In this document: in pieces, positions 15,559 to 30,476 of the stretch | Position numbering within the stretch: the stretch's first letter is position 1 | Layout: every line of letters starts with the position of its first letter | Assembly (NCBI RefSeq): GCF_001700965.1 | Contig: NZ_CP016756.1 | Location: 558,001 to 622,000 of the forward strand | DNA from: Stenotrophomonas nitritireducens | GTDB taxonomy: Bacteria > Pseudomonadota > Gammaproteobacteria > Xanthomonadales > Xanthomonadaceae | DNA length: 64,000 bases | Reading direction: 5' to 3' | The notes under the pieces: model-generated | What the model was told of the DNA's origin: nothing | Databases searched by the model: none | What the model saw: the letters and a program-made list of their open reading frames with translations, nothing else | Position numbers and translations under genes: made by a program

Positions 15559-16776
15559 ATGACGCACCGGCCGTTGATCATCAGCTACATCCTCCTGATC
15601 TGGTTCGCCATCTCCTTCATCACCAACCTGATCGGGCCGCTGATGCCGATCGCCATCCAGGATTTCAAGCTGAGCCTGACCATGGCCGGCTTCATGCCGT
15701 TCTCGTTCTTCCTCGCCTACGGTTTGATCTCGATCCCCGGCGGCATGCTGATCGAGGTCCGCGGCACCCGCTTCACTCTCTTTACCGCCTTCGCATTGAA
15801 TTTCATCGGTGCCATGGCCATCGCCGTGATGCCAGGCTATGTCTCCGTCGTCGCTGGCCTGTTCGTCATCGGCCTGGGCATGGCACTGCTGCAGGTGGTG
15901 ATCAATCCCTTGATGCGCACCGCTGCCGGCGAACAGCATTTCGCGTTCTATTCGGTGATGGCGCAGCTGGTGTTCGGCCTGGCCTCCTTCCTCAGCCCCC
16001 TGGCATTCCGGCTGTACATGCAGCGCCCGGACGTGCAGGGGCAGCCGCTGGCCTGGCTGGCCTTCTATTGGTATTTCGCTGCAGCCTTCGTGCTGTTGGC
16101 CCTGCTCAACTACAAATTGCCATTGCCTACCGTGCAGCTGAAAGACGATGAGCGCGCCGGCAGCCGGGCGGTATACGGCAGCCTGCTGCGGCGCCGCGAT
16201 GTGCGCCTGTTTTTCCTGGCCATCGTCGCCTATGTCGGCACCGAGCAATCCATCGCCAACTGGATGTCGCAGTTCCTGCACAGCTATCACGGCCTATCGG
16301 CCACCGAACAGGGCGCCATCGCCGTCAGCCGCTTCTGGGGCCTGATGTCGCTGGGCTGCCTGGCAGGGTTGGGGCTGCTGAAACTGCTGGATTCCAAACT
16401 GGTATTGGCCATTTTCTCCACGCTGGCCATTGCCTGCCTTGCACTCGCCCTTTTCGGCCCGGCAGCCATCTCTCTGTTGGCCTTTCCTGCTGCGGGCTTT
16501 TTCTTGTCGGTGATGTTCTCGGTGATCTTTTCGCTGGGCCTGAATTCTGTCACCCAACACCACGGGGCGTTCTCGGGAATCCTGTGCAGCGGCATTCTCG
16601 GCGGCGCCGTCGTGCCGCTGTTGATCGGCGTGGTCGGTGACCACCTTGGCCTGCGCGCAGGCATGTCGCTGGTATTCATCCCCTTGCTCTACATCCTCAG
16701 CGTCAGCGCCTGGGCCAGGCCGCTGGTGCGTAACCAGACTGTGTATTCCGGGAAGAACACCCCCGCCTCGCCCTGA
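15559..16776 (+). CDS. FHS-type major facilitator sugar permease
   Basis: The 405-residue protein has about 12 hydrophobic segments. It shows the N-terminal pattern of the fucose/hexose permease branch of MFS (SYILLIWFAISFITNLIGPL, then LIEVRGTR after helix 2). Members of this branch include FucP and the N-acetylglucosamine permease NagP of other Proteobacteria. It probably imports the monosaccharide released by the periplasmic glycosidases for the kinase to phosphorylate. The start has GGAG 9 bp upstream. A 67-bp gap separates it from the receptor. Confidence 0.86.
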   Translation: MTHRPLIISYILLIWFAISFITNLIGPLMPIAIQDFKLSLTMAGFMPFSFFLAYGLISIPGGMLIEVRGTRFTLFTAFALNFIGAMAIAVMPGYVSVVAGLFVIGLGMALLQVVINPLMRTAAGEQHFAFYSVMAQLVFGLASFLSPLAFRLYMQRPDVQGQPLAWLAFYWYFAAAFVLLALLNYKLPLPTVQLKDDERAGSRAVYGSLLRRRDVRLFFLAIVAYVGTEQSIANWMSQFLHSYHGLSATEQGAIAVSRFWGLMSLGCLAGLGLLKLLDSKLVLAIFSTLAIACLALALFGPAAISLLAFPAAGFFLSVMFSVIFSLGLNSVTQHHGAFSGILCSGILGGAVVPLLIGVVGDHLGLRAGMSLVFIPLLYILSVSAWARPLVRNQTVYSGKNTPASP

Positions 16777-16843
16777 TCGGGCAACCGCAGCAACCACCGC
16801 GCGGGCCTGCCGGCCCAAGTCGCCGCACAACCAGGAGCCAACA

Positions 16844-19513
16844 ATGAGAAAGCATCCCAGCGCTGTTCGACCGACCGGCATCGCCGCCGCGGTGGCAGCG
16901 GTATTGATCAGCTGTGCGGCCGCTCCGGCGCTGGCGCAGTCCACCGGCACGGACGAGGAGCAGAAGCCCGGCACCGGCAACGCCCAAACCACGCTGGAAA
17001 CGGTGCGTGTATCCGCCACCCGCGTTGAATCCGACCTGCTGAAAACGCCGGTCACCGTTACCGCCGTCACCCAGGAAGCGCTGACCCGCGAAGGCATCCG
17101 CGACGTACGTGGCCTGTCCGGCAGCATGCCCAACCTGCAGATTGCCAATGGCCCGGATTCCGGCGTGCAGGTCAGCATCCGCGGCATCGGCGCCAACAAC
17201 TTCACCGAGATCGGTGACCCTGCCGTTGGCCTGCATGTGGCCGGCCTGTACTCGCCGCGCCCGCAGGGTGCGCTGGCGCTGATGTTCGACGTGGACCAGG
17301 TGGAAGTGCTGCGCGGCCCTCAGGGCACCTTGTTCGGGCGCAACTCCACCGGCGGCAGCATCAACATCATTCCGGCCAAGCCGCGCTTCGATTCCACCTT
17401 CGGCAGCACCGAGCTGGAGCTCGGCAGCTACAACCTCCGCCAGCTCAATCTGATCCAGAACTTTGCGGTCAGCGAGCGCTTCGCTCTGCGCGTGGCGGCG
17501 ACCAAGGTCGAGCGCGATGGCTGGATCGACCAGCAGCAGGATTTCACCGATGTGAACATCCCAGAGCGCGGTTTCATCGCCGATGGCATCCCCGACGTGG
17601 ACCAGCGCCGCAACCGCAAGGTCTCGCGCAAGGACTACTACTACAACCGCGACGAGTGGGCAGCGCGTATCGCCGCACGCTTCGCCATCACCGACGATGT
17701 CGAGTGGCTGCTGTCCTACGAGAAGTTCCAGAACTCCGGTGCCGGCCAGGTTGGGGTGAAGGACTGCGACCAGGCCGCCGGCACCCGCTTCGCCTGCGAA
17801 GGCGGCAAGTGGGACGTGAAGATCAACGTGCCGGGCCGCACCGACATGTCGATCGACACTGTGCGCTCCAACCTCAACTGGTTCCTCAGCGACAGCAACA
17901 GCATCGAGTACAGCGTGGCCTTCGCCAACCAGAAGCGCTTCCAGATGTCCGACGATGATGGCGGCTACCACGAGATCCCCTCGCAGGTAACCGCCACTCT
18001 GCCGGTACCTGCAGAGGGCGACTGGGGCGTCTGGCCGGTGCGCGACAACACCTCGATAACTCTGGACTCGCAATACAAATCATTCGTCCACGAGCTGCAG
18101 TTCAAGCATCAGGGCGAGCGTTTGAATCTGGTCTCCGGTTTGTTCTGGATGCGCGAGAAGAACGCGATCAACTACGCGCAGGAAATGCTGGTCAACGCGC
18201 CATACGGTTTCCCGATCAGCCAGTTCTATCACCAGCCTGATCGCCAGATCGACGCCAAGGCGATCTTCTCGCAGGCCGATTGGCACTTCGCACCAACCTG
18301 GACCGCCACGCTGGGCGCGCGCTACAGCCGCGACTCCAAGACCGACCGCGGCGGCCAGGTGTATGGCGGCTGGGATGCCACCTCGGCGGCGTATTACAAC
18401 GACTTGTACAACCCGGGCACGCCGGGCGAGCCTGGCTTCCGCCCGCACAATGGCCGCGACCTGACCGAGCAGATGGGCCCGTTCGGTGGCATTGATGCCT
18501 ACAAGCTGTGGGGGCCGCCGGCGGAAAACGCCCACTCCGAATCATGGAGCAAGGTCACCTGGCGCCTGGGCCTGACCAAGGACCTGTCCGAGGACGAAAT
18601 CCTGTTCACCTCCTTGTCCACCGGCTACAAGGCCGGCGGCTTCGGCGACAAGGACGATATCTGTGGCGGCAAGGAGTGTCTCGATGGCCCGGCAGGCCCG
18701 CAGTATTCCTTCTTCCCCTACAAGCCGGAAACCATCACCAACCTGGAGATCGGCTACAAGGGGCTGCTGCTGGACAAGCGCCTGAGTCTGGCAGTCACCG
18801 CGTTCTACAGCCGCTACAAGGACATGCAGGTCACCGGCGATTTCTATGCGGCCAAGGTGCACGTCAACGAACCCTGCCCGGATTGGGACCCGACCTGCGA
18901 TGTGATCAAGAAGTGGCAGACGGTGAACGTCGGCACGGTGAACATCCCCGGCCTGGAAGTGGAAGTGGACTACCTGCCCACCCCAAACACGCGTATCGGC
19001 GGCTTCTTCTCGTACATCAACAGCAAGATCAAGGACTACCCGACCTTCAGCGATGAGTGGAACTGCGGCGTGCGCGAAGAATTCGGCGCCGTGCCCTGCC
19101 CCGATCCGTATACCGGTCCGGACCCCACCCTGGCCGGCCGCCAGATCTACGACATCACCGGCAACCACCTGCCGATGACGCCGAAGTTCACCGCCGGCGT
19201 CAACGTCTCCCACACGTTCAAGTTCGGCAATGGTTACGAGCTGGTGCCGTGGTTCAACGTGAAGTGGCAGGACAAGATGTACTTCACCCTGCGCAACATC
19301 GACAACCCGCACATCTCCGATGGCCAGAAAGCCTATGCCACCGTTGATGCCAGCCTGAGCCTGCAGTCACCCTCGTTCTGGCGCGCCGAGCTGTACGTGC
19401 TCAACGCCACCGACAAGATGACCAAGAACTGGGCCGACGATGCCGGCGGCTTCATCCGCGCCTATTGGAACGACCCGCGCACCGTAGGCCTGCGCGTGCG
19501 CTTCGATTACTGA
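16844..19513 (+). CDS. TonB-dependent outer membrane receptor, no STN domain
   Basis: From the ATG at 16844 (AGGAG 7 bp upstream) the product has 889 residues. A signal peptide ends near ALAQ (about residue 31). The plug domain begins at LETVRVSATRVESD and contains VEVLRGPQGTLFGRNSTGG. A 22-strand barrel follows, ending in Tyr (GLRVRFDY). Several Cys pairs occur in the loop regions. No N-terminal signalling domain is present, so it is not a transducer. Position after the permease, without a visible promoter, suggests it carries the oligosaccharide across the outer membrane. A siderophore-type substrate remains possible from sequence alone. Confidence 0.88.
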   Translation: MRKHPSAVRPTGIAAAVAAVLISCAAAPALAQSTGTDEEQKPGTGNAQTTLETVRVSATRVESDLLKTPVTVTAVTQEALTREGIRDVRGLSGSMPNLQIANGPDSGVQVSIRGIGANNFTEIGDPAVGLHVAGLYSPRPQGALALMFDVDQVEVLRGPQGTLFGRNSTGGSINIIPAKPRFDSTFGSTELELGSYNLRQLNLIQNFAVSERFALRVAATKVERDGWIDQQQDFTDVNIPERGFIADGIPDVDQRRNRKVSRKDYYYNRDEWAARIAARFAITDDVEWLLSYEKFQNSGAGQVGVKDCDQAAGTRFACEGGKWDVKINVPGRTDMSIDTVRSNLNWFLSDSNSIEYSVAFANQKRFQMSDDDGGYHEIPSQVTATLPVPAEGDWGVWPVRDNTSITLDSQYKSFVHELQFKHQGERLNLVSGLFWMREKNAINYAQEMLVNAPYGFPISQFYHQPDRQIDAKAIFSQADWHFAPTWTATLGARYSRDSKTDRGGQVYGGWDATSAAYYNDLYNPGTPGEPGFRPHNGRDLTEQMGPFGGIDAYKLWGPPAENAHSESWSKVTWRLGLTKDLSEDEILFTSLSTGYKAGGFGDKDDICGGKECLDGPAGPQYSFFPYKPETITNLEIGYKGLLLDKRLSLAVTAFYSRYKDMQVTGDFYAAKVHVNEPCPDWDPTCDVIKKWQTVNVGTVNIPGLEVEVDYLPTPNTRIGGFFSYINSKIKDYPTFSDEWNCGVREEFGAVPCPDPYTGPDPTLAGRQIYDITGNHLPMTPKFTAGVNVSHTFKFGNGYELVPWFNVKWQDKMYFTLRNIDNPHISDGQKAYATVDASLSLQSPSFWRAELYVLNATDKMTKNWADDAGGFIRAYWNDPRTVGLRVRFDY

Positions 19514-19791: not shown

Positions 19792-21300
19792 TTACTCGGG
19801 CTTCGCCCACCCCAGATCCGGCTCCGGGTGGTACTGCACACCCAGCGCATCCAGCTGTGGGCGCAAGGCGCCCATGCGTTGTGCGAAGGCGGCATAGCTG
19901 CGCTGCCCTGCCGGACTCCAGCCAAGCTCCGCTACCGCCGCCAGGCGCGGCCACAGATGCGCATCCGCCGACGCATCGGTGTGCACGAATTCGGTCCACA
20001 GCGCCGCCTCGATTCCGACCGCCGTCTTGAATGGCGCCGGGTCGAAGCTGTAAAGGCGTTTCAGCGGCACGCCTTCCGCACGGCACCAATCGGCACCGGG
20101 CTGGCCCGCGTAATTGCCATGGTCGATGTACAGGTAGGAGCAAGGCGACAGAATCAGTGGGTGACCCTTGGCGACCGCAGCATCGATGGCATAGCCGTCA
20201 TTCCACAGCTGCAGTATCGCGCTGGGCTTCATGTCCGCCACGGAACCTTCTTCCCATACGATGGGAGTACGCCCCATCTCATCCATCATCGCTGCAGTCC
20301 GCGTCACAAAATCGGCGTACAGCGGATCCTTGATCTCATCACCGCCGATGTGGATTTCCTGGGACGGGAAGATCGCCACCACTTCTTCCAATACGTTGCG
20401 GACGAAGGGATAAACGACCTCGGGCTTCTCCAGGCAGAACACACTGAAGCCAACCTCCACGCCGGAATATGGGGACAGGTTCTTTACATCTGCGCAGGCC
20501 AGCTCGTTGTAGGAGGCCAGCGCCGCCTGCACGTGCCCCGGCATGTCTATCTCCGGCACGATGGTGACGCCGCGCGCCTGCGCATAGGCCACCAGATGCT
20601 TGAGTTGTTCCTGCGTGTAGTAACCGGCACGCCCACCTTCCACTGCGCTGCGGCCGCCGATTTCCACCAGCTTCGGGTAGCGCTTGATCTCGATGCGCCA
20701 GCCCTGGTCGTCGGTCAGATGCAGGTGCAGGCGGTTCAACTTGAACAGCGCCATGCGGTCGATATGCTTTTCCAGATATTCAACCGGCAGAAAGCTGCGC
20801 GCCACATCCAGCGAGACGCCGCGCCAGCGGTAGGCAGGCACATCGCGGATAGCCAGCTGCGCCAGCCGGTACTCGGCCTGCTTTTGTGCCGGCAACAACT
20901 GGCGCAGGCTCTGTGCGCCATGCAGCAGCCCTGCATCGGTCCGCGCACTGAGCCGGATGGCATTGTCGATCACCAGCCGATAGCCTTCCTCGCCCAATTC
21001 CGCCTCATCAACCAGCTGCAGGTGGAGGGTTGCCGATGTTGCACCTGATCCGTCCAGCCCAAGTCTCGCCAGCAGTTCGGTCAGCGCCTGCGTGGCATGG
21101 GGCGTGCCTGCCGCTGCTTCGACCTTGATCGAGGAAAAGCGTAGTTCTCCCGCTGCCGGCTGGATCGTCTGTGGAATCGGCACGATCGACGTCAACGCTG
21201 ATGTAGGTTCTGTGACCTCGGTGCGCTGCGCGCAACCGGTTGCCGCTGTCGCGGCTACAAGACAAACGATCAGAGCGTGAAGCTTGAAGGGCAATCTCAT
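19792..21300 (-). CDS. GH20 beta-N-acetylhexosaminidase, lipoprotein
   Basis: The product has 502 residues from the ATG at 21300. The N-terminus has a lipobox (ATGC near residue 23), so it is probably membrane-anchored. A GH20b-like N-terminal domain precedes the TIM barrel. The barrel has the substrate-assisted catalytic pair in HIGGDEIKDP near residue 317 and LTDDQGWRIEIKRYPKL near 197. GH20 enzymes release terminal GlcNAc or GalNAc. It ends convergently with the receptor of the ROK locus and follows the M20 gene after 240 bp. That gap holds a hairpin (about 21408-21437) and no gene. Confidence 0.9.
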   Translation of the reverse strand: MRLPFKLHALIVCLVAATAATGCAQRTEVTEPTSALTSIVPIPQTIQPAAGELRFSSIKVEAAAGTPHATQALTELLARLGLDGSGATSATLHLQLVDEAELGEEGYRLVIDNAIRLSARTDAGLLHGAQSLRQLLPAQKQAEYRLAQLAIRDVPAYRWRGVSLDVARSFLPVEYLEKHIDRMALFKLNRLHLHLTDDQGWRIEIKRYPKLVEIGGRSAVEGGRAGYYTQEQLKHLVAYAQARGVTIVPEIDMPGHVQAALASYNELACADVKNLSPYSGVEVGFSVFCLEKPEVVYPFVRNVLEEVVAIFPSQEIHIGGDEIKDPLYADFVTRTAAMMDEMGRTPIVWEEGSVADMKPSAILQLWNDGYAIDAAVAKGHPLILSPCSYLYIDHGNYAGQPGADWCRAEGVPLKRLYSFDPAPFKTAVGIEAALWTEFVHTDASADAHLWPRLAAVAELGWSPAGQRSYAAFAQRMGALRPQLDALGVQYHPEPDLGWAKPE

Positions 21301-21540
21301 GGTGCCGGCGCGTCCGCAAGGAGTACCTCGGCATGATGCCCAGTTAATGCTGACGACGCCACGGCTCGCGCACTGCGCCACGGCAAGCATCGCAGCAATC
21401 GAGCGGCGACCCGATGGAGGGGATCGGGCCGCCGCCCCTGGAGCGATGGGCTACCCAGCAGCACCACTCCGGGCGTTACCTTGCCCGCGCGGCGGTGAAG
21501 CCCGCGTGGACCGGAGATTTCAGAGCGGAGACAGCGCGTC

Positions 21541-22983
21541 TCAGTCTTTCGGCTTGCGGCGATAGTCCAGCGGTGGCGCATCCCGCTGCAGCAATGGTAC
21601 GTAGCGGAAGCCTGCGCCGCGGCGCTCATCGAACTCCTGCCTGGCCTTGGCTACCAACTCCGGCGACTGCAGCAGCTGCACGCCAGCGAGGGCCATCACC
21701 TTGGCCGCCTTCAACGCGCCCTTGGCACCAATCGACATGCCTGAGGCCGCTACCGCCTGCCAGCTGTGCGCCGGCGTGCCGGGCACCCAGGTTGCTGTGC
21801 CGACGCCGACGGTCGGCACGTTCCAGCTGACATCACCCACATCCGTGGATGCGCTGCCGGCCAGATCGGCGCGATAGGGTTGCAGCTGTGTTGCCTGTTG
21901 CAGGCCCGGGCGCTTTTCCAGACTCTCCTGCAGTTTCTTCGCAAACGCCTGTTCGGCCGCGTCGTACTGCACACCGCCAACCTGCTGCAGCGCTGCCTGC
22001 ATCACCCGCCCAAGCGTGTCGTTGGGTAGCAGCGAGTACACGCCGCCGGTCGGTTCGAACTCGACCGTGGTGCCGGTCCCCATTGCTGCACCTTCGGCGG
22101 CCTTCTGCAGGCGTTCGATTACATCGCGCACCACAGCCGGATCGGTATGGCGTACGTAGTAATAGGCCTCGGCTGCATCCGGTACCACGTTGGGTGCAGC
22201 GCCGCCATTGCTGATCACGTAATGGATGCGGGTGCCGTCGGGCACGTGCTCGCGCATCATGTTGGCCATGTAGTTGAGCGCTTCTACCCCGTCGAGCGCC
22301 GAGCGGCCACGTTCCGGCGCGATGGCTGCATGCGCGGCTCGCCCATGGAAACGGAACTTGCCGCTGATGTTTGCCAGGCTGGTGCCCTGTGCGGCGGAGT
22401 TCTCGGCGGACGGGTGCCAGTGCAGCACCACGTCGACATCATCGAACAAGCCAGCCTTGGCCATATAGACCTTGCCGGAGCCGCCCTCTTCCGCAGGCGT
22501 TCCATACAGGCGCACTTCGCCGGGGGTACGGGCCTGCTGCATCCATTGCGCCAATGCCCGCGCCGCGCCTACCGAGGCAGCGCCGAACAGGTTGTGCCCA
22601 CAGGCCTGGCCGGCGTCCTGCCCCGCAATCAGGCTGCGTACCGGCTCGGCGGCCTGCGCCATGCCGGGCAAGGCATCCATTTCCGCCAGCAGCGCAATCA
22701 CTGGCCCTTTGTTTCCACTGCGGTAACTGGCGACAAATGCGGTCGGCATACCGGCAACGTTGGCCTGGATGCGGAAGCCGGCCTGTTGCAGTTCCTGCTG
22801 CAGCAAGGCCGATGAGGCATGCTCCAGATAGCCCAGCTCAGGCTGCTGCCACAGTTGCTGGCCGACTTCGGCCTGCCGTGGCGCATAGGCGTCCAACGCG
22901 GCGATCACATCCGCCGCGAACGCTGCGCCTGCCAGTGGCAGCAAGGCAGCCAACAAGCCGGCACGCAAACAACGCTTCTTCAT
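21541..22983 (-). CDS. Exported M20-family amidohydrolase, AbgB-like
   Basis: From the ATG at 22983 the product has 480 residues with a signal peptide (LLAALLPLAGAAFA). An ATG at 23001 overlaps the upstream TGA as TGATG and would add six residues. Metal-site motifs are visible: LLAEMDALPG, GQACGHNLFGAAS near residue 127, and GTPAEEGGSGK. This pattern is closest to AbgB, the p-aminobenzoyl-glutamate hydrolase subunit. M20 relatives also cleave N-acyl amino acids, including auxin conjugates. E. coli AbgB is cytoplasmic, so the export signal here is notable. It is coupled to the amidohydrolase gene upstream. Confidence 0.87.
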   Translation of the reverse strand: MKKRCLRAGLLAALLPLAGAAFAADVIAALDAYAPRQAEVGQQLWQQPELGYLEHASSALLQQELQQAGFRIQANVAGMPTAFVASYRSGNKGPVIALLAEMDALPGMAQAAEPVRSLIAGQDAGQACGHNLFGAASVGAARALAQWMQQARTPGEVRLYGTPAEEGGSGKVYMAKAGLFDDVDVVLHWHPSAENSAAQGTSLANISGKFRFHGRAAHAAIAPERGRSALDGVEALNYMANMMREHVPDGTRIHYVISNGGAAPNVVPDAAEAYYYVRHTDPAVVRDVIERLQKAAEGAAMGTGTTVEFEPTGGVYSLLPNDTLGRVMQAALQQVGGVQYDAAEQAFAKKLQESLEKRPGLQQATQLQPYRADLAGSASTDVGDVSWNVPTVGVGTATWVPGTPAHSWQAVAASGMSIGAKGALKAAKVMALAGVQLLQSPELVAKARQEFDERRGAGFRYVPLLQRDAPPLDYRRKPKD

Positions 22984-23000
22984 CCTGCCGCCCTCACCCA

Positions 23001-24830
23001 TCAATAGAAGCTGACGTTGTCGATCTCGAACCACAGCTTGCTGCCGGGTTCGCCGCTGCCGGAGACCACCAGTTGTTGCAGGTCGTCCCCCTTCCACACC
23101 GCTACCGGCGCCTTGGCGCGGTACGGCGGCTGTCCCTGCAATGCAGCGAAGGGGATTTCCACCGTCTGCCACTGCGCCCCGGCCTGCAGTGGCGCTGTGA
23201 AGCGGCGATTGCCCAGCGCCCGCACTTCCAATTGCAATTCAGGTGCGCTGCCGCGCAGCTCCAGGCGGATGCCGCGATAGGCGCGTGCATCCACCGGCGC
23301 TACCGAACCGCGGCTCAGCGGCAGGATGGCCGCAGCAAAAGCGTTGTCCTTGCTGGACAGCTTGGCTTGGGTTGCAAGTGCGTTGCCGCCGGTCTCGCGC
23401 GCGACGATTTCGGTCACCTGCGCGGTACGGTCGTTGCCGCCGTCAGCCTCGTCCACGCGCAGCGTGTCCAGCGCGGTGCGGCCATCGCTGCGTTCGAAGT
23501 CATCAACCAAGGCCTGCACCGGTTGCGCAGGCAAGGCCAAGGCCTTGTTGCCGGCCGGCAGTACCGCGCCCTTGCCCTGAACCTGACGGCCAGCGACATA
23601 GACCTGCTGGGTGTTGCGCACGTCGCCGATGCGCTCCCACGGACGACCACGCACCAGCAGCAGATCCGCGCGTTTGCCGACCTCGATGCTGCCGCGGTCA
23701 CCCACACCCAAGGCCTTGGCGCTGGCCGAGGTGCCGGCTAACAAGGCTTCGCTCGGGGTCAGCCCGGCCTGCACCAGCAGTTCCAGCTCGCGCAGGGTCG
23801 ATGCGCCATGCGGCGTACCGGTCATGCCGGCGTCGGTGCCAACAACGACCGGAATACCGGCATCGTGCAGCGTCTTGACGTTGTGCAGTGCATTGGCGAA
23901 ATTCTGCTCGCGCTGCGCCAGCACGTCGGGCTTGCCGTTGTTGCGGCCACTGCCATCCACCCGCTCGGGCAGGTACACGGCCAGGGATGGTGCATAGGCC
24001 GTGCCGTGTTCACGCATCAACGCGATCAGCTCGGCATCGGCCGGGCCGTCCTGCACGCTGTGGGCGATCACATCCACGCCAGCGCGTGCGGCGGCCTTGC
24101 CACGCTTGACCATCACCGTATGGGTGAACACCTTGAGACCGTGCTTGTGGGCCTCATCTACCAGCGCGGTGAGGGTTTCCTCATCCATGCTGCTGTTGTC
24201 GGCCGCGTTGGAATAGCGCCAGCCATCGGTGAACGCCTTGATGAAATCGGGCTTGTAGGCGGCAACTGCCTGCACCCCTGCGCGCGCGGCTTCGGGCGAA
24301 TTTACCCAGCGCGTGGTGTTCTCATCACCCCAGTCGGCACCATGGCCCAGCGGCGTGCTCATGCGCGCAGCGAACTTGACGTCGGGTGCTGCGATCGAGG
24401 CCAACCAGGCACGTCGCGGCGCGTAGGCTTCCGGCGGCTCGTGGAAATCGCTGACCGTGGTGACGCCTGCCGCCATGTACAGGTTGGCAACCTGCGGCAG
24501 TTCCGATGGCGTGGCATTGGGCGTCCAATGCGTGTGCAGGTCGAAAAGGCCGGGCAGCAGCGCCTGACCGCGCGCATTGACCACGCGTGCGCCCTTCGGC
24601 GCGGCCAGCTCCGCACCAATGGCAGCGATGCGACCGTCCTCGACCAGCACGCTGGCCGGGTACGCTGCGCGGCCAGTGCCGTCGAACACCATCGCATCAC
24701 GAATCAGGAGCGCGTTGTCGCCGGCGGCAGCGGCCACGGCGGCCTGCTCTGCCCTCAGCAATGCGACGGCGAGTACCGCCAAGGCGAAACCACGCCTGTT
24801 GTTGTAGTGCATGTTTCTATCCGGGTTCAT
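23001..24830 (-). CDS. Exported amidohydrolase with C-terminal CIA30/CBM11-like domain
   Basis: The product has 609 residues from the ATG at 24830; ATG 24812 is an alternative. After a signal peptide comes an amidohydrolase barrel of the imidazolonepropionase/prolidase-like group. It has LFDLHTHW near 96-103, the Lys motif FIKAFTDGWR, later His in FTHTVMVK and IAHSVQDG, and VVVGTDAGMTG. From about residue 445 a beta-rich domain begins with VDDFERSDGRTALDTLR and ends KLWFEIDNVSFY. This is the pattern of CIA30 or family 11 carbohydrate-binding modules. The ATG overlaps the FecR stop as ATGA, which implies translational coupling. The substrate is unknown. Confidence 0.85.
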   Translation of the reverse strand: MNPDRNMHYNNRRGFALAVLAVALLRAEQAAVAAAAGDNALLIRDAMVFDGTGRAAYPASVLVEDGRIAAIGAELAAPKGARVVNARGQALLPGLFDLHTHWTPNATPSELPQVANLYMAAGVTTVSDFHEPPEAYAPRRAWLASIAAPDVKFAARMSTPLGHGADWGDENTTRWVNSPEAARAGVQAVAAYKPDFIKAFTDGWRYSNAADNSSMDEETLTALVDEAHKHGLKVFTHTVMVKRGKAAARAGVDVIAHSVQDGPADAELIALMREHGTAYAPSLAVYLPERVDGSGRNNGKPDVLAQREQNFANALHNVKTLHDAGIPVVVGTDAGMTGTPHGASTLRELELLVQAGLTPSEALLAGTSASAKALGVGDRGSIEVGKRADLLLVRGRPWERIGDVRNTQQVYVAGRQVQGKGAVLPAGNKALALPAQPVQALVDDFERSDGRTALDTLRVDEADGGNDRTAQVTEIVARETGGNALATQAKLSSKDNAFAAAILPLSRGSVAPVDARAYRGIRLELRGSAPELQLEVRALGNRRFTAPLQAGAQWQTVEIPFAALQGQPPYRAKAPVAVWKGDDLQQLVVSGSGEPGSKLWFEIDNVSFY

Positions 24831-25831
24831 TGCATGGACCGCGCCGAATGCGGCACGGCTTCTGGGGAACTCAAGCGCACCACGTCACCGTGCTGCTGCA
24901 CCCGCAGCCCCAGGCTCAGCGCAACACTGTTGGCGAAGCCACGCGGGTCGCTGGCCGAGTACAGGCCAACGATGCGGCGGCTGCCGACCAGCGGATCATC
25001 GATGACGATGCGGGTATCGCTGTAACGCAGGAACTGCGCGGCCGCCACCGACAAGGTGTCGCCGTTGAACGACAGCATGCCCTCACGCCAGGCCAGTTGC
25101 TGGTCCACATCGTCTGTCGGCACCGCCTCGATGCGGATACCGTGGCTGCGGTTGGCCAGCGCGCGGTAGTTGGCGACCAAACGAGTCGGCGCGACGGCAC
25201 CCTGGGTATCGGTCACATCGACGATACCTTCGCGCACCAGCACCTCAACGCCACCACTGCGGCGCTCGGTGAGGCTGACCGCAAAACTAGTACCCACCGC
25301 CGTCACATCGGTTTCCTCGGCGCGCACCACGAACGGACGCTGCGGGTTCTTGGCCACGTCGAACAAGGCCTCGCCCTGCAGCAACTGGATATCACGACGG
25401 GTAGCACTGAACTGCACCCGCACCTGCGAGTCCGAGTCCAGCGTGATCGCCGAACCATCCGCCAATGGCACGCGCAGGATTTCGCCTTTGCGGGTAGCGA
25501 AATAGTCCGCGCCATCATCCTGCCGCTGCACGCCGATGGCCAGTACGCCAACCACCGCAGCCAAGCCCACCGCCCAGCGCATTACGCGCCGTGCACGGTG
25601 CGGGGTGCGCGCCGTATAGGCACGACCCATCTCACCGGCCGACAACGCGCGGGCGCGGTCGGTCCTTGCCAGCACCGCGTGCGCGCGCGCATAGGCGCCA
25701 AAGTGGCGCGTATCGGCTTGCAGCCAGTCATCACGTTGCACACTCTCCTCCGCCGTGAGTTGCGCGCGGTCCTCGCGCGCCACCCAACGGGCGGCTACAT
25801 CATCAATATTCGCATCAGCGCCGACGCGCAT
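24827..25831 (-). CDS. FecR-family anti-sigma regulator
   Basis: The ATG at 25831 has AAGGAG 6 bp upstream, so I prefer it to an in-frame ATG at 25885 deep inside the sigma gene. The 334-residue product has an N-terminal cytoplasmic domain (DDVAARWVARED) and one membrane helix near residues 86-105. The periplasmic FecR domain carries GSAITLDSDSQVRVQFSATR and FDVAKNPQRPFVVRAE. FecR proteins relay the occupied state of a TonB receptor to their sigma factor. It overlaps the sigma gene by 17 bp and the amidohydrolase start by 4 bp. Confidence 0.92.
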   Translation of the reverse strand: MRVGADANIDDVAARWVAREDRAQLTAEESVQRDDWLQADTRHFGAYARAHAVLARTDRARALSAGEMGRAYTARTPHRARRVMRWAVGLAAVVGVLAIGVQRQDDGADYFATRKGEILRVPLADGSAITLDSDSQVRVQFSATRRDIQLLQGEALFDVAKNPQRPFVVRAEETDVTAVGTSFAVSLTERRSGGVEVLVREGIVDVTDTQGAVAPTRLVANYRALANRSHGIRIEAVPTDDVDQQLAWREGMLSFNGDTLSVAAAQFLRYSDTRIVIDDPLVGSRRIVGLYSASDPRGFANSVALSLGLRVQQHGDVVRLSSPEAVPHSARSMQ

Positions 25832-26402
25832 GCCTTGCTCCTTCCGCGGCGGACCGCTCACTACTTTTCTGCAATCCGTTGTCATCGTGCTTCATTGAAT
25901 CCATCAACACCCGGATCCCTTTGCAGATGTGCTTCTCCACGGTGTTCTCGCTGATCTGCATGCGTTCGGCGATCTCGCGCTGCGAGTAGCCTTCCACCCG
26001 CCGCAGCACGAACGCCTGCCGGCATTTTTCCGGCAGGCTGTCGATCAATGCGCCGATGCGCGCCAGCTCCTGTCGCGATGAGGCCATCCGTTCCGGGCTG
26101 ACCTCATCGCCGACGATGGCGACGCGGTCAATCTCGGCCACCGCCTCGATCGACACCACCTGCGCACGCCGCAACTGCTGCAGCACCACCGAATGCGCGA
26201 CTGAATACACATAAGCGCGCGGCTGCAGGATATGCGACACATCAGCCATGCCGGCCAGGATGGCGTAGGTTTCCTGGATCACGTCATCCACGTCCTGGCG
26301 CAGCGACAGTCGCCGCCGCAGCCAGTCGCGCAACGCCGGTTCACACGGCAGGATATGCTCGGCCAGCCAAGCGGCGCGCTCGCGTGCAAGCGCCGCGTTC
26401 AT
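25815..26402 (-). CDS. FecI-like ECF sigma factor
   Basis: The 195-residue product has sigma region 2 (about 20-90, with DDVIQETYAIL and RAYVYSVAHSVVLQQLRRAQ). Region 4 (about 125-175) has LPEKCRQAFVLRRVEGYSQR and a helix-turn-helix in ISENTVEKHICKG. This is the FecI group, which works with FecR and an STN receptor in cell-surface signalling. The receptor gene lies immediately upstream, 52 bp away, so the order is receptor-sigma-FecR rather than the usual sigma-FecR-receptor. Confidence 0.93.
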   Translation of the reverse strand: MNAALARERAAWLAEHILPCEPALRDWLRRRLSLRQDVDDVIQETYAILAGMADVSHILQPRAYVYSVAHSVVLQQLRRAQVVSIEAVAEIDRVAIVGDEVSPERMASSRQELARIGALIDSLPEKCRQAFVLRRVEGYSQREIAERMQISENTVEKHICKGIRVLMDSMKHDDNGLQKSSERSAAEGARHARRR

Positions 26403-26454
26403 CGCGGCACCTGCCTGTCGCCCGCAGCGGGGCGAATTGAAACGTCTCTGCGCA

Positions 26455-29400
26455 TCAGAACGCCTTGCTCACGTTGACGTACCAGTAGCGCGGGTTGGCC
26501 TGGTACACGCCCGACGGGTAGCCGAACACATCATCAGCAATCGGTGGACGCTTGTTGGCGATGTTTTTGGCGCCGATCTTGACTGCGACGTTGCTGAGCC
26601 AGCCTTCGCGCTCGAAGTCGTATTTGACGAAGGCATTGGCCAGCGTCTGCGACTTCACCGTCCACGGCGTGCCATCGGCCAGGGTCAGGCCGTTCTCGAC
26701 ATAGGAGCTGGCATAGCGCGCGTTCGCACCCACCGAGAACTGCTGGTAGCGCCAGGTCAAGGTGCCGGACCACTTCCATTCCGGGTTGCCGCCATTGCCG
26801 ATCAGGTCGCCGCCGCCGGTGATGCGGATGGACGGATCAACCAGACCGCCGGCCTTGGCATCTTCCAGCGCCTGCAGCGCCGGCGAACGCTGGCGGTAGA
26901 ACTCGATCAGGTGCGTGCCGGTGACCGACACATCGAAGCGGCCAATCGCGGTTTCCGGCGAGTTCCAGCTGAAGTTGTAGTCAACGCCGCGCAGGGTCTG
27001 CGGTTCCAGGTTGACGTACTGGTCGGTGACGTAGAGCACCTTGCCTGCCGGATCCAGACCGGTACCGGCGAACCGCGCGATGTCGTCGGCGGTGGCATCG
27101 GCACGCACCACGGCGGCGTTGCTGCCACCCTGCTGGCGCAGCATGTAATCCAGGATCAGTGCATTGCCTTCGCCGAACAGGCCGATGATGCCTTCCTGCT
27201 CATACTTGTAGTAATCCACGGCGAAGCTGAAGCGGCCGTAGTTCTCGGGGATGAAGCGCGGCTGGAACACCAGCCCGGCGCTGGTATTGGTGGAGGTTTC
27301 CGGCTTCAGGTCCGGATTGCCCGAGCGCCGCGCGGTGGTGGAGTAGCTGTAACCGCCGCAATTGGAGAACGCCGGCTGCGCGCCATTGCGCTTGTCCGCC
27401 TCACACTGGATGTAGTCGGTGCGGGTATTGGAGCGGCTCACCACCGTGGCGTTGATCTGCTCCAGGTTGGGCGCACGGAAGCCCTTTGCCCACGACGAAC
27501 GCAGGGTGAGGCCGTCGAACACCTGCCAACCCAGCGCCACCTTCGGCTTGGCGACATTGCCGAAGTCGTTGTAGCGCTCGGCACGGCCGGCCAACTGCAG
27601 GTCCAGCGAGCGCACCAGCGGAATGTTCATTTCCGGCGACACCAGCGGCACCGAGAATTCGGCGAACAAGCCAGCGACGGTACGCGAGCCGTAGGTGTCC
27701 GGGGTCGGGCTGACGCCGTACATGTCGCTGGGATAGGCAACGCCGGTGATCGCATCGGTGAAGGTCACCGAGCCGTCGACGCGCGCATCGCGGTCATCGC
27801 GCTGGGTTTCATGGCGCACTTCCAGACCGGCCGCCATGCCAACGCCACCGGCCCAGGTCTTGAACAGGTCAGCGCGCGAAGCCTTGAAATCCCACAGGAA
27901 CAGTTCGGTCTTGCTCTGGCGCTGCGCCTTGTAGAAGAACTGGTCCAGCTTGTCCCAGTCATTGCAGCCGCCACAGAACGGGTTGTACGCCGATGCGGTG
28001 GGGTTGGCCAAGGACTGCTGGAACAGTGACATGCTCACTGCATCCTGGGTGTCCTTGACCCGCGCCGCGGAGTACAGCGCTGCGCTTTCCCAATCGAAGC
28101 CGTAATGAAAACCACGCAGACCGGCCAAGGCGCGCACCTGGGTGTTGTTGACCTCGATGCGGGTTGGCCGCTCGAAACGGTAGCTGGTGATGGTCACCGG
28201 CACACCGTTGGCGCCGATGTTCAAGCCCTGCAGACGGTTGGGGTTGAGCGAGCCATCGGGCAGATACATTGCACCGAACGGGTTCCAGTAATTGTTGGCC
28301 GCTACCGTCATCGGCAAGGCGGTGATGGTGTTGACGCCATTCTGCAGGCTGTAGGCACGCGAGTTGTAGACGCCGGCCTCGCTGAAGAACGACAGGCCAT
28401 TGTCGAAATCATGCTTGCCGGTAACAAACAGGTTGAGGCGGCGCACGTCCGGACTGATCGACAGCGGGTACTGGCCCTGCTGGTTGTCGCGCAGGTTGGC
28501 GTCAGCGCCAGACGTGGCCTTGCTGCCGGACTGCACGCACAGGCCATCGGCAATGGTGGCCGCACAGCCACTATTGCTGGTCGGCTGCACATGGAAGGCG
28601 CCGGCAGTGGTGGTCAGCCAGGTGCCGTTCTTCGACACGCGCGGGCCGACCACGGTGAAGTTGCCCCACGGGCTATTGGTGTTGCGGTTGTCGGTACCGG
28701 CCAGCCCTTCGAATGGCGTACCGGCGAAATCCGCCGCACGGTTGCCATCGCGGGTCCAGTTGTGGTCCAACGAATTCAGGCCGGTGGTGTTGTAGTAGTT
28801 GAAGGCGATGGTGATGTTGGAGCGCAGGTCCTCGGAGTTCTTGCCCCACATGCCATTGATGCCGACATCACTCAGGTCGGTCCCTTCGCCGAAGCCCTTC
28901 TGCACGCTGATGGTGCCGCCATCCATGTCGTCACGCAGCACATTGTTGACCACACCGGCGACCGCGTCGGTGCCGTAGATGGCGGCCGCGCCGTCCAGCA
29001 GCACTTCAACGCGGCGCAGGTTGGACACCGGCACGGCGTTGGCGTTGTAGGTCAGCACCGGCACCAGATTGCCGTCGGCCTGGCTGGTGGGGTGCACCAC
29101 GGTGCGCCGGCCATTGATCAGCAACAGCGTATTGCCCACGCCCAGGCCGCGCAGGTTGACCGAGGCGATGTCGCCACGCGCGTAGTTGGAGCTGTTGCCG
29201 CCATTGGTGCCACTGAACGAGACATCGCCCATCTGCGGGATGGAGCGGTACAGGTCGTCGCCGGATACGGCGCCGGTGGCCTCGATCTGCTCGGCCTGCA
29301 AGGTCGCAACCGGCAGGATCGCAGCGGTCTTGGCGCCCTTGATCTGGCTGCCGACCACGGTGATCTGGTCCAGTGTGCTCACGCTGGGGCTGGTCGCTGC

Positions 29401-29814
29401 CGGTGCAGTCACCGGTTCGGCCGCCTGCGGCTGCACCGCCTGCCCTGCAGCCAGCCCGCCAAGGCCGGACAACGAAGCCAGCATCGGCGAGGCCGCGCGC
29501 AGGGTGATGGTGCGACCATCATCCGAGGCCACGCTCAGGCCGGTGCCGGCCAGCAACCGGGCCAGGGCCTGGCGCGGCTCCATCTGCCCTTTCAGCTCGG
29601 CCACTGCAATCCGCTGGGCTCCGCCTGAATGCGCGGGGGCAATGATCTGCACACCTGCCTGTCGGGCGAATTCCGGCAATACATCCTCGATGTTGCCCGC
29701 CTGAAGATCGAACTGCGGCGGCGCAGCCAGCGCCGAAACCCCGGCGCACAGCGCCACAACTGCCAGACCGCCGCGGATAGCGCTTGCAAGCGGCAACAAC
29801 TTGAATGAACGCAT
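26455..29814 (-). CDS. TonB-dependent transducer with N-terminal STN signalling domain
   Basis: From the ATG at 29814 (GGGGA upstream) the product has 1119 residues. A signal peptide is followed by an STN (secretin/TonB short N-terminal) domain at about 30-105, with FDLQAGNIEDVLPEFARQAG and PRQALARLLAGTGL. A Pro/Ala-rich linker leads to the plug (TLDQITVVGSQIKGAK, then RVEVLLDGAAAIYGTDAVAG). The long barrel ends in Phe (NVSKAF). STN domains contact FecR in the periplasm, which fits the downstream genes. The plug resembles receptors for peptides or oligosaccharides rather than classic siderophore receptors, but the ligand is not readable from sequence. Confidence 0.9.
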   Translation of the reverse strand: MRSFKLLPLASAIRGGLAVVALCAGVSALAAPPQFDLQAGNIEDVLPEFARQAGVQIIAPAHSGGAQRIAVAELKGQMEPRQALARLLAGTGLSVASDDGRTITLRAASPMLASLSGLGGLAAGQAVQPQAAEPVTAPAATSPSVSTLDQITVVGSQIKGAKTAAILPVATLQAEQIEATGAVSGDDLYRSIPQMGDVSFSGTNGGNSSNYARGDIASVNLRGLGVGNTLLLINGRRTVVHPTSQADGNLVPVLTYNANAVPVSNLRRVEVLLDGAAAIYGTDAVAGVVNNVLRDDMDGGTISVQKGFGEGTDLSDVGINGMWGKNSEDLRSNITIAFNYYNTTGLNSLDHNWTRDGNRAADFAGTPFEGLAGTDNRNTNSPWGNFTVVGPRVSKNGTWLTTTAGAFHVQPTSNSGCAATIADGLCVQSGSKATSGADANLRDNQQGQYPLSISPDVRRLNLFVTGKHDFDNGLSFFSEAGVYNSRAYSLQNGVNTITALPMTVAANNYWNPFGAMYLPDGSLNPNRLQGLNIGANGVPVTITSYRFERPTRIEVNNTQVRALAGLRGFHYGFDWESAALYSAARVKDTQDAVSMSLFQQSLANPTASAYNPFCGGCNDWDKLDQFFYKAQRQSKTELFLWDFKASRADLFKTWAGGVGMAAGLEVRHETQRDDRDARVDGSVTFTDAITGVAYPSDMYGVSPTPDTYGSRTVAGLFAEFSVPLVSPEMNIPLVRSLDLQLAGRAERYNDFGNVAKPKVALGWQVFDGLTLRSSWAKGFRAPNLEQINATVVSRSNTRTDYIQCEADKRNGAQPAFSNCGGYSYSTTARRSGNPDLKPETSTNTSAGLVFQPRFIPENYGRFSFAVDYYKYEQEGIIGLFGEGNALILDYMLRQQGGSNAAVVRADATADDIARFAGTGLDPAGKVLYVTDQYVNLEPQTLRGVDYNFSWNSPETAIGRFDVSVTGTHLIEFYRQRSPALQALEDAKAGGLVDPSIRITGGGDLIGNGGNPEWKWSGTLTWRYQQFSVGANARYASSYVENGLTLADGTPWTVKSQTLANAFVKYDFEREGWLSNVAVKIGAKNIANKRPPIADDVFGYPSGVYQANPRYWYVNVSKAF

Positions 29815-29999
29815 GGATAAATCCCCAGAAAATGACGCGAATGACGGCAACCTCTGCCCCCTGCATGACTCGATGCATGAGCGCGCCGGTTCCGCCATCC
29901 CATCGCCATGGTCGCTGATCTGGCATACCTGTACCCAGCAAGCCGCCATACGCCGTAGTATTCTCCGTGGATAAGCTCAGGAACCGAGGACCACGCCCC

Positions 30000-30476
30000 A
30001 TGCGTTTTCGCCCCCAGTACGCCTTGATGGCCGTGCTAGCCCTTGTACTCACGGCCTGCGGCAATGGCCCGGTCAAACGCGTTTCCGAACCGGCCGCCAG
30101 CATCCAGCAGTTGAGCGTTGGCAATGACGGCAACTGGGAGGTGGAACTGCGCCTGCGCAACTACAGCTCCATGCCGATGCGCTTTGACAGCGTGTCGCTG
30201 GCGGTGAAGGTTGGCGACGAAGCGGCCGGCACGCTCAGCGCCAGCCCAGCCTTGTCGATCGGCCCGGAATCGGCCGACGTCATCAAGGTGCGCCTGCAGC
30301 CGTCCTCCTCGGCCCGCATCGTCGTGGCCGATGCACTGGCAGGCGGCCGCTCGCTGTTCTACGAGCTGGAAGGCAGCGTCAGCGCCACCCCTGAAGAAAA
30401 GAAGCAACGCAGTTTCGACATCAAATCACGCAACAGCCTCAACCAGGCCCCTGGCCTGCCCGGCGTGCTGCGCTGA
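30000..30476 (+). CDS. Small lipoprotein with LEA-type-2-like domain
   Basis: I chose the ATG at 30000, preceded by GAGGA; a weaker start lies 33 bp upstream. The 158-residue product has a lipobox LTAC with Cys near residue 20. The body is beta-rich and resembles the WHy/LEA-14 fold (VELRLRNYSSMPMRFDSVSLAVKV). Such proteins are poorly characterised envelope lipoproteins, sometimes linked to desiccation or stress. It precedes the acyl-CoA dehydrogenase by 37 bp and may share a transcript with it. Confidence 0.78.
   Translation: MRFRPQYALMAVLALVLTACGNGPVKRVSEPAASIQQLSVGNDGNWEVELRLRNYSSMPMRFDSVSLAVKVGDEAAGTLSASPALSIGPESADVIKVRLQPSSSARIVVADALAGGRSLFYELEGSVSATPEEKKQRSFDIKSRNSLNQAPGLPGVLR

Follow-up and report, generated by a model that had tools for sequence, protein, structure and literature searches.

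We analyzed a 64,000-nt stretch of the Stenotrophomonas nitritireducens genome (contig NZ_CP016756.1, positions 558,001 to 622,000; hereafter the window) and identified on its minus strand a near-continuous five-gene block, running from 29814 to 21541, that encodes an STN-type TonB receptor, a FecI-like sigma factor, a FecR protein, an amidohydrolase and an M20 hydrolase, in this order. All coordinates of the block are positions within the window. We propose, with a probability of roughly 0.6, that the block is a self-amplifying cell-surface-signaling operon through which a peptide-like or N-acyl-amino-acid nutrient is taken up and cleaved in the periplasm. Protein families suggest the signaling, uptake and cleavage functions, and fold relatives and neighboring genes suggest the substrate class. 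The five-gene operon is patchy in distribution yet tightly conserved where present.

Coordinates and Pfam searches confirmed the five genes and the order that a first-pass annotation of this region had reported. The leading gene (26455..29814, on the minus strand like the rest of the block) encodes a TonB-dependent receptor/transducer of 1119 aa with a signal-peptide-like start and STN, plug and barrel domains; the barrel (TonB_dep_Rec_b-barrel, 97.3 bits) and Plug (46.7 bits) both score well above their Pfam cut-offs, and the last residue of the translation is F. It is followed by a FecI-like extracytoplasmic function (ECF) sigma factor (25815..26402, 195 aa) with Pfam sigma regions 2 and 4 (Sigma70_r4_2 at 64 bits, above the cut-off) and a TIGR02937 match above cut-off, and by a FecR-like sigma regulator (24827..25885, 352 aa, or 334 aa from an internal ATG at 25831; PF04773, 75.6 bits). 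Both fall below the narrower FecI and FecR equivalog models (68.9 versus a cut-off of 260 and 84.5 versus 385, respectively). Among the gene junctions described earlier, the ATGA overlap between FecR and the amidohydrolase was correct, and the 17-bp overlap between sigma factor and FecR requires a FecR start at 25831 and becomes 71 bp with the longest frame. TGATG is present in the sequence at the junction of the two enzyme genes, but a start of the M20 gene at 22983, 17 bp past the amidohydrolase stop, is a plausible alternative that yields a credible signal peptide and agrees with several close relatives. Across five-gene loci, spacing ranges from −17 to 53 bp for amidohydrolase–M20 and from −1 to 61 bp for receptor–sigma; the amidohydrolase–M20 gap is 69–142 bp in four loci without the regulators. 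Gene starts in relatives were chosen by script and are approximate, with an overrunning sigma frame at one locus (L089) producing a false 308-bp overlap. Crude pN/pS values of 0.13–0.44 across all five genes, with two relatives compared per gene, are at the level of constrained genes. Frames R1–R4 were excluded as mechanical antisense frames over other genes.

Each enzyme has a signal-peptide-like N-terminus, judged by eye, in line with the export and periplasmic location previously claimed for both. The apparently exported amidohydrolase (23001..24830, 609 aa; Amidohydro_1, 95.2 bits) is of the Cc2672/ochratoxinase kind: it resembles Cc2672-type dipeptidases and ochratoxin hydrolases at 23–29% identity, its metal-ligand motifs are conserved and it has the binuclear site (HxH, Lys, His, His, Asp) and fold of the Cc2672-kind group (COG1228/M38). 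It scores below the Xaa-Pro dipeptidase equivalog NF051886 (148.6 versus 500 bits). Fold and six-ligand metal-site pattern are shared with the dipeptidases Cc2672, Sgx9359b and Sgx9260c and with the ochratoxin hydrolases ADH3 and AnOTA, from which the block’s enzyme differs by an additional C-terminal CIA30/CBM11-like domain (~23004–23528, minus strand) and by its own sensor in the block. This domain was assigned from Pfam and homologues: CIA30 is under the Pfam cut-off in the window’s enzyme and at or just above it in two of three relatives tested, some homologues have precomputed CIA30 or CBM11 annotations, and VIA-align structural rows barely reach the C-terminal part. The second enzyme, an apparently exported AbgB-like M20 metallohydrolase (21541..22983, 480 aa), combines Peptidase_M20 (49.5 bits) with a dimerization domain and exceeds the TIGR01891 cut-off. 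Over 474 residues it shares 39% identity and the M20 motifs with E. coli AbgB, and its predicted fold also matches HmrA and PM20D2, which counts as weak support because the mean pLDDT of the model is only 69.

Genus-wide presence was determined for the sigma factor, amidohydrolase and M20 enzyme; receptor and FecR were recorded in the fetched loci. Among 91 genomes of the genus, 16 contain orthologues of the sigma factor (at least 70% identity; next best, 52%), full-length orthologues of the amidohydrolase (at least 73%; next best, 33% with partial coverage) and orthologues of the M20 enzyme (at least 76%), the set of 16 genomes being identical in all three cases. In 14 of the 15 relatives fetched, the five genes are collinear; in the remaining one the contig ends within FecR, with the sigma gene on a separate contig. 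A search of 247 genomes of the family yielded ten full-length amidohydrolase orthologues outside the genus (55–65% identity, six genera), six of them in whole blocks. Conservation across the Xanthomonadaceae, which the first-pass annotation had raised, was therefore observed as co-conservation of the genes but not as family-wide presence. Named carriers include Stenotrophomonas humi, S. acidaminiphila, S. mori, a Lysobacter, Luteimonas wenzhouensis, Pseudoxanthomonas taiwanensis and ‘Xanthomonas massiliensis’; the S. pictorum block is interrupted by a contig end. At ten loci fetched from 38 other genomes (matches at E 1e-30 or better), the receptor, sigma factor, FecR and M20 of this system were all absent at 50 bits or more. 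One genus has four loci (L086, L087, L090 and L091) with the enzyme pair and no receptor, sigma factor, FecR or motif, and a fifth (L085) with the whole block. A record labeled Bacillus subtilis SK7B5 (L162) contains a Stenotrophomonas-type block at 76% identity, and this assembly is probably mislabeled. Downstream of the operon and in the same direction lies a GH20 hexosaminidase gene (19792–21300), followed by a further TonB receptor gene on the plus strand (16637–19513). The GH20 gene was excluded as an operon member since it had no match, at 40% identity over 40% length, in 15 relatives’ loci reaching ~2.6–6.3 kb beyond M20 where the contig allowed.

Upstream of the receptor gene, we identified a predicted ECF sigma promoter, TGGCGGAAC-N11-TGCATC (29872..29897, minus strand), whose end lies 57 bp upstream of the receptor ATG. 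Of 24 receptor-bearing loci (near-duplicates counted), 23 have the pattern TGGMGGAA-N13-KCATC ending 57–73 bp before this start, and the remaining one (L115) has a single-base difference within the first half of the motif. This motif was the single strongly conserved element in an alignment of 20 upstream regions (near-duplicate L032 omitted), and its GGAA/CATC layout resembles ECF promoters. The pattern did not occur in any of 60 more distant amidohydrolase loci, ten paralogous amidohydrolase loci or the loci with the enzyme pair alone, and a sigma-70 promoter scan of 21200–30100 found none. At a paralogous locus of S. humi, where the sigma factor is 48% identical, the motif precedes both the sigma and the receptor gene, which supports, without proving, that the block’s sigma factor reads it. 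This sigma–FecR–receptor system with its two motif copies (L046, 9550–16847) is followed by two exported proteins that, by translation only, resemble solute-binding proteins. The motif is probably the promoter recognized by the sigma factor of the block. When the window alone is searched, the motif does not reach significance (one match at two or fewer mismatches, with one also in 23 of 100 shuffles), and a wider pattern has four matches in the whole 4.54-Mb genome. The exact pattern occurs in at least 76 of the 91 genus genomes, mostly distant from the block among the matches listed; given this spread, the pattern by itself lacks specificity. In L141, a stray N13 match lies away from the block, looser N11/N14 matches occur in L031, L032, L102, L113 and L145, and the motif was not seen in the aligned upstream regions of Caulobacter loci (sigma identity ~48%).

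The gene order had been called unusual, and our comparison agrees: receptor-first is unusual but not unique. All full blocks read have the order receptor–sigma–FecR. Elsewhere, where all three genes were seen, the order is sigma–FecR–receptor in 12 loci (L046–L049, L051, L123, L127, L128, L133, L140, L172 and L174), including the five of seven paralogous sigma loci in which all three were detected (L046–L049 and L051). The receptor is divergent in eight loci (L143, L145, L147, L150, L152, L156, L163 and L169) and comes first, outside the blocks, only in L160 and L161. The window’s genome contains PF04773 three times; the second copy adjoins an ECF sigma gene with a divergent STN receptor, and the third lies, by eye, within a LysM-like protein.

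To place the amidohydrolase among its relatives, a scan of named genomes retained the best 80 of 147 relatives, and neighbors were clustered for 71 loci (L111–L181), with nine Stenotrophomonas loci omitted. Frames were called mechanically, export was assessed by eye, genera were unevenly sampled and each cluster was represented in the Pfam search by one or two members. Receptors assigned to a single similarity cluster, in which more than one type is combined, lie near the amidohydrolase in 54 of the 71 loci; a sigma factor is nearby in 20 and FecR in 19. Peptidases recur as well, comprising a Met-zincin (DUF4953; 17 loci), gamma-glutamyltranspeptidase (12), M20 enzymes of this kind (11) and an M14 carboxypeptidase (10); at individual loci, an aspartyl protease, a peptide-binding protein or an oligopeptide ABC protein is also present. 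Alphaproteobacterial relatives adjoin receptors and peptidases. In six genomes selected for a Met-zincin at the locus, the gene occurs once in five and twice in one; of four other locus genomes, three have it elsewhere and one has none. The proximity of Met-zincin (DUF4953/DUF5117) to the amidohydrolase in several genera (L129, L131, L154, L163, L167 and L177) is a lead for the function of the Met-zincin itself. In a Phenylobacterium bin (L124, 11717–13398), the receptor beside the amidohydrolase falls into two short frames and is broken or misassembled.

In the working proposed here, a ligand would bind the receptor and undergo TonB-dependent import, the STN domain of the receptor would signal to FecR, and FecR would release the sigma factor, which would act at the conserved motif to switch on all five genes, its own among them. 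Both enzymes, the amidohydrolase and the AbgB-like M20 hydrolase, would then split amide bonds of the imported ligand in the periplasm; one would trim it, and the other would set free an amino acid. The first-pass annotation had named the same peptide-like or N-acyl-amino-acid class, which we retain as a candidate class; its more specific suggestions of a plant conjugate or a folate catabolite were unsupported. Several observations weigh against the proposed operon function. The STN match (PF07660) is marginal, at 28.6 bits versus a cut-off of 28.4, and the motif is missing at six of seven paralogous sigma loci. The amidohydrolase and M20 genes stand alone at four of the ten other-genus loci, all in one genus, and two loci from Rudaea and an unassigned bin (L111 and L113) encode receptor, sigma factor, FecR and amidohydrolase without a recognizable M20, so that neither half strictly requires the other. 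Gamma-glutamyltranspeptidase is present in one to five copies per genome, two in the window’s genome, and, being commoner, is less informative than Met-zincin, which a search found absent from the window’s own genome. This absence, the abundance of exported peptidases and receptors in these bacteria and the lack of independence among the loci mean that the alphaproteobacterial context may not transfer to the block.

The loci with the enzyme pair alone, four in number, also favor the view that the receptor–sigma–FecR trio and the pair are two units merely traveling together. We consider this unlikely, as the genes overlap behind a single predicted promoter, the sigma factor and both enzymes share one presence pattern across the 91 genomes, and at 54 of 71 other loci the amidohydrolase has a receptor from the same cluster nearby. 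An iron system, in which the receptor would import a peptide siderophore and the hydrolases would cut its amide bonds to free iron, would be in keeping with the FecIRA-like systems listed in PMC12772443, which mostly serve iron. The best Xanthomonas Fur box match within 250 bp upstream was nevertheless 10/19, equal to shuffles (mean 10.1), and no match at the other 21 loci exceeded the best shuffle (simple base shuffles). Pfam-scanned neighbors comprised GH20, LEA2, acyl-CoA dehydrogenase, HNH, DXP synthase, TraB and the further TonB receptor, with no iron transporter or reductase among them. By the Fur box, the sole iron feature examined, the block does not look like an iron system, and we regard an iron function as improbable.

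A folate-catabolite system, importing p-aminobenzoyl-glutamate or polyglutamates from which the AbgB-like enzyme would free glutamate, seems comparably improbable. The identity of M20 to AbgB, a motif copy before the glutamate symporter gene gltS (see below) and the recurrence of gamma-glutamyltranspeptidase near amidohydrolase relatives speak for it. Against it, p-aminobenzoyl-glutamate is small enough for porins, which makes a TonB receptor odd, and the amidohydrolase would be left without a role. The GltS site, moreover, occurs in two close relatives only. AbgA and AbgT are not beside M20, whose immediate neighbors, to which this comparison was confined with the rest of the genome left unsearched, are the amidohydrolase and GH20 genes. 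E. coli AbgB is, according to PMC5082436, one subunit of a non-secreted heterotetramer with AbgA, whereas the block’s M20 enzyme has a signal-peptide-like start and is apparently exported; the folate proposal of the first-pass annotation was accordingly dropped. Still less probable is detoxification, with the amidohydrolase destroying a toxic amide such as ochratoxin A in the manner of ADH3: identity to ADH3 is only 26–29%, dipeptidases are at least as near, the recurrent neighbors of the relatives are peptidases and an uptake receptor is ill-suited to excluding a toxin.

The uptake and cleavage operon may also be part of something larger. A second TonB receptor of the same genome, P0007, encoded outside the window (L186, 1547–4393), has the motif at L186 1365–1390, 156 bp before its start. 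The motif precedes P0007 in six block-bearing genomes (G000, G055, G010, G075, G048 and G054), with one-base variants in G076 and G018. Among 30 loci read (nine block-bearing, 21 not), the block-bearing G002 and G074 lack the motif before P0007 and the block-lacking G051 has a one-mismatch copy, both of which count against P0007 as a second regulon member. Four more block-bearing genomes with P0007 (G027, G056, G031 and G072) had no exact site there among the matches listed, and G001 and G059 have no P0007 orthologue at 70% or above. As the genomes with the motif before P0007 are close relatives, a second regulon member is a lead only. In two related, S. acidaminiphila-like genomes (L192 and L193), the motif lies 177 bp before the GltS sodium/glutamate symporter gene. 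Six other motif sites (L194–L199) were rejected as regulon support, their promoter position not being clear. It is conceivable, though rather doubtful, that these elements form a surface-signaling regulon for organic nitrogen, not iron, in which the sigma factor would serve its own receptor, the two periplasmic amidases and the second TonB receptor, as well as GltS in S. acidaminiphila-like genomes. If true, such a regulon would suggest that the nutrient sensed is a glutamyl or gamma-glutamyl conjugate.

With known FecIRA-type systems (fec, has, hxu and pup, as well as HemI-HemR-HemAD of S. maltophilia), the block shares an STN receptor, a FecI-like sigma factor and FecR, adjacent and in one direction; it differs in its leading receptor, its two amide hydrolases and the lack of a detected Fur box. 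Lasso peptide clusters likewise place a peptide-cleaving enzyme alongside genes for a TonB transporter and a sigma/anti-sigma pair (PMC9266682), though the genes themselves differ. The likeness lies in surface signaling beside a peptide-cleaving enzyme, and the enzymes are unrelated; neither lasso biosynthesis genes nor the isopeptidase were found by Pfam among 15 window proteins, a scan that did not cover short precursor frames. As the first-pass annotation had assumed, no published description of this gene set was found in the titles and abstract openings of the papers listed, with few subscription journals covered. FecI/FecR surface signaling has been studied mostly for iron, and, if our reading is true, it is here wired to organic nitrogen. 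The compact operon with its sharp predicted promoter would then offer a simple route to a non-iron signal, and a genomic entry point to two large enzyme groups that are poorly assigned, the Cc2672-kind amidohydrolases and the AbgB-like M20 enzymes.
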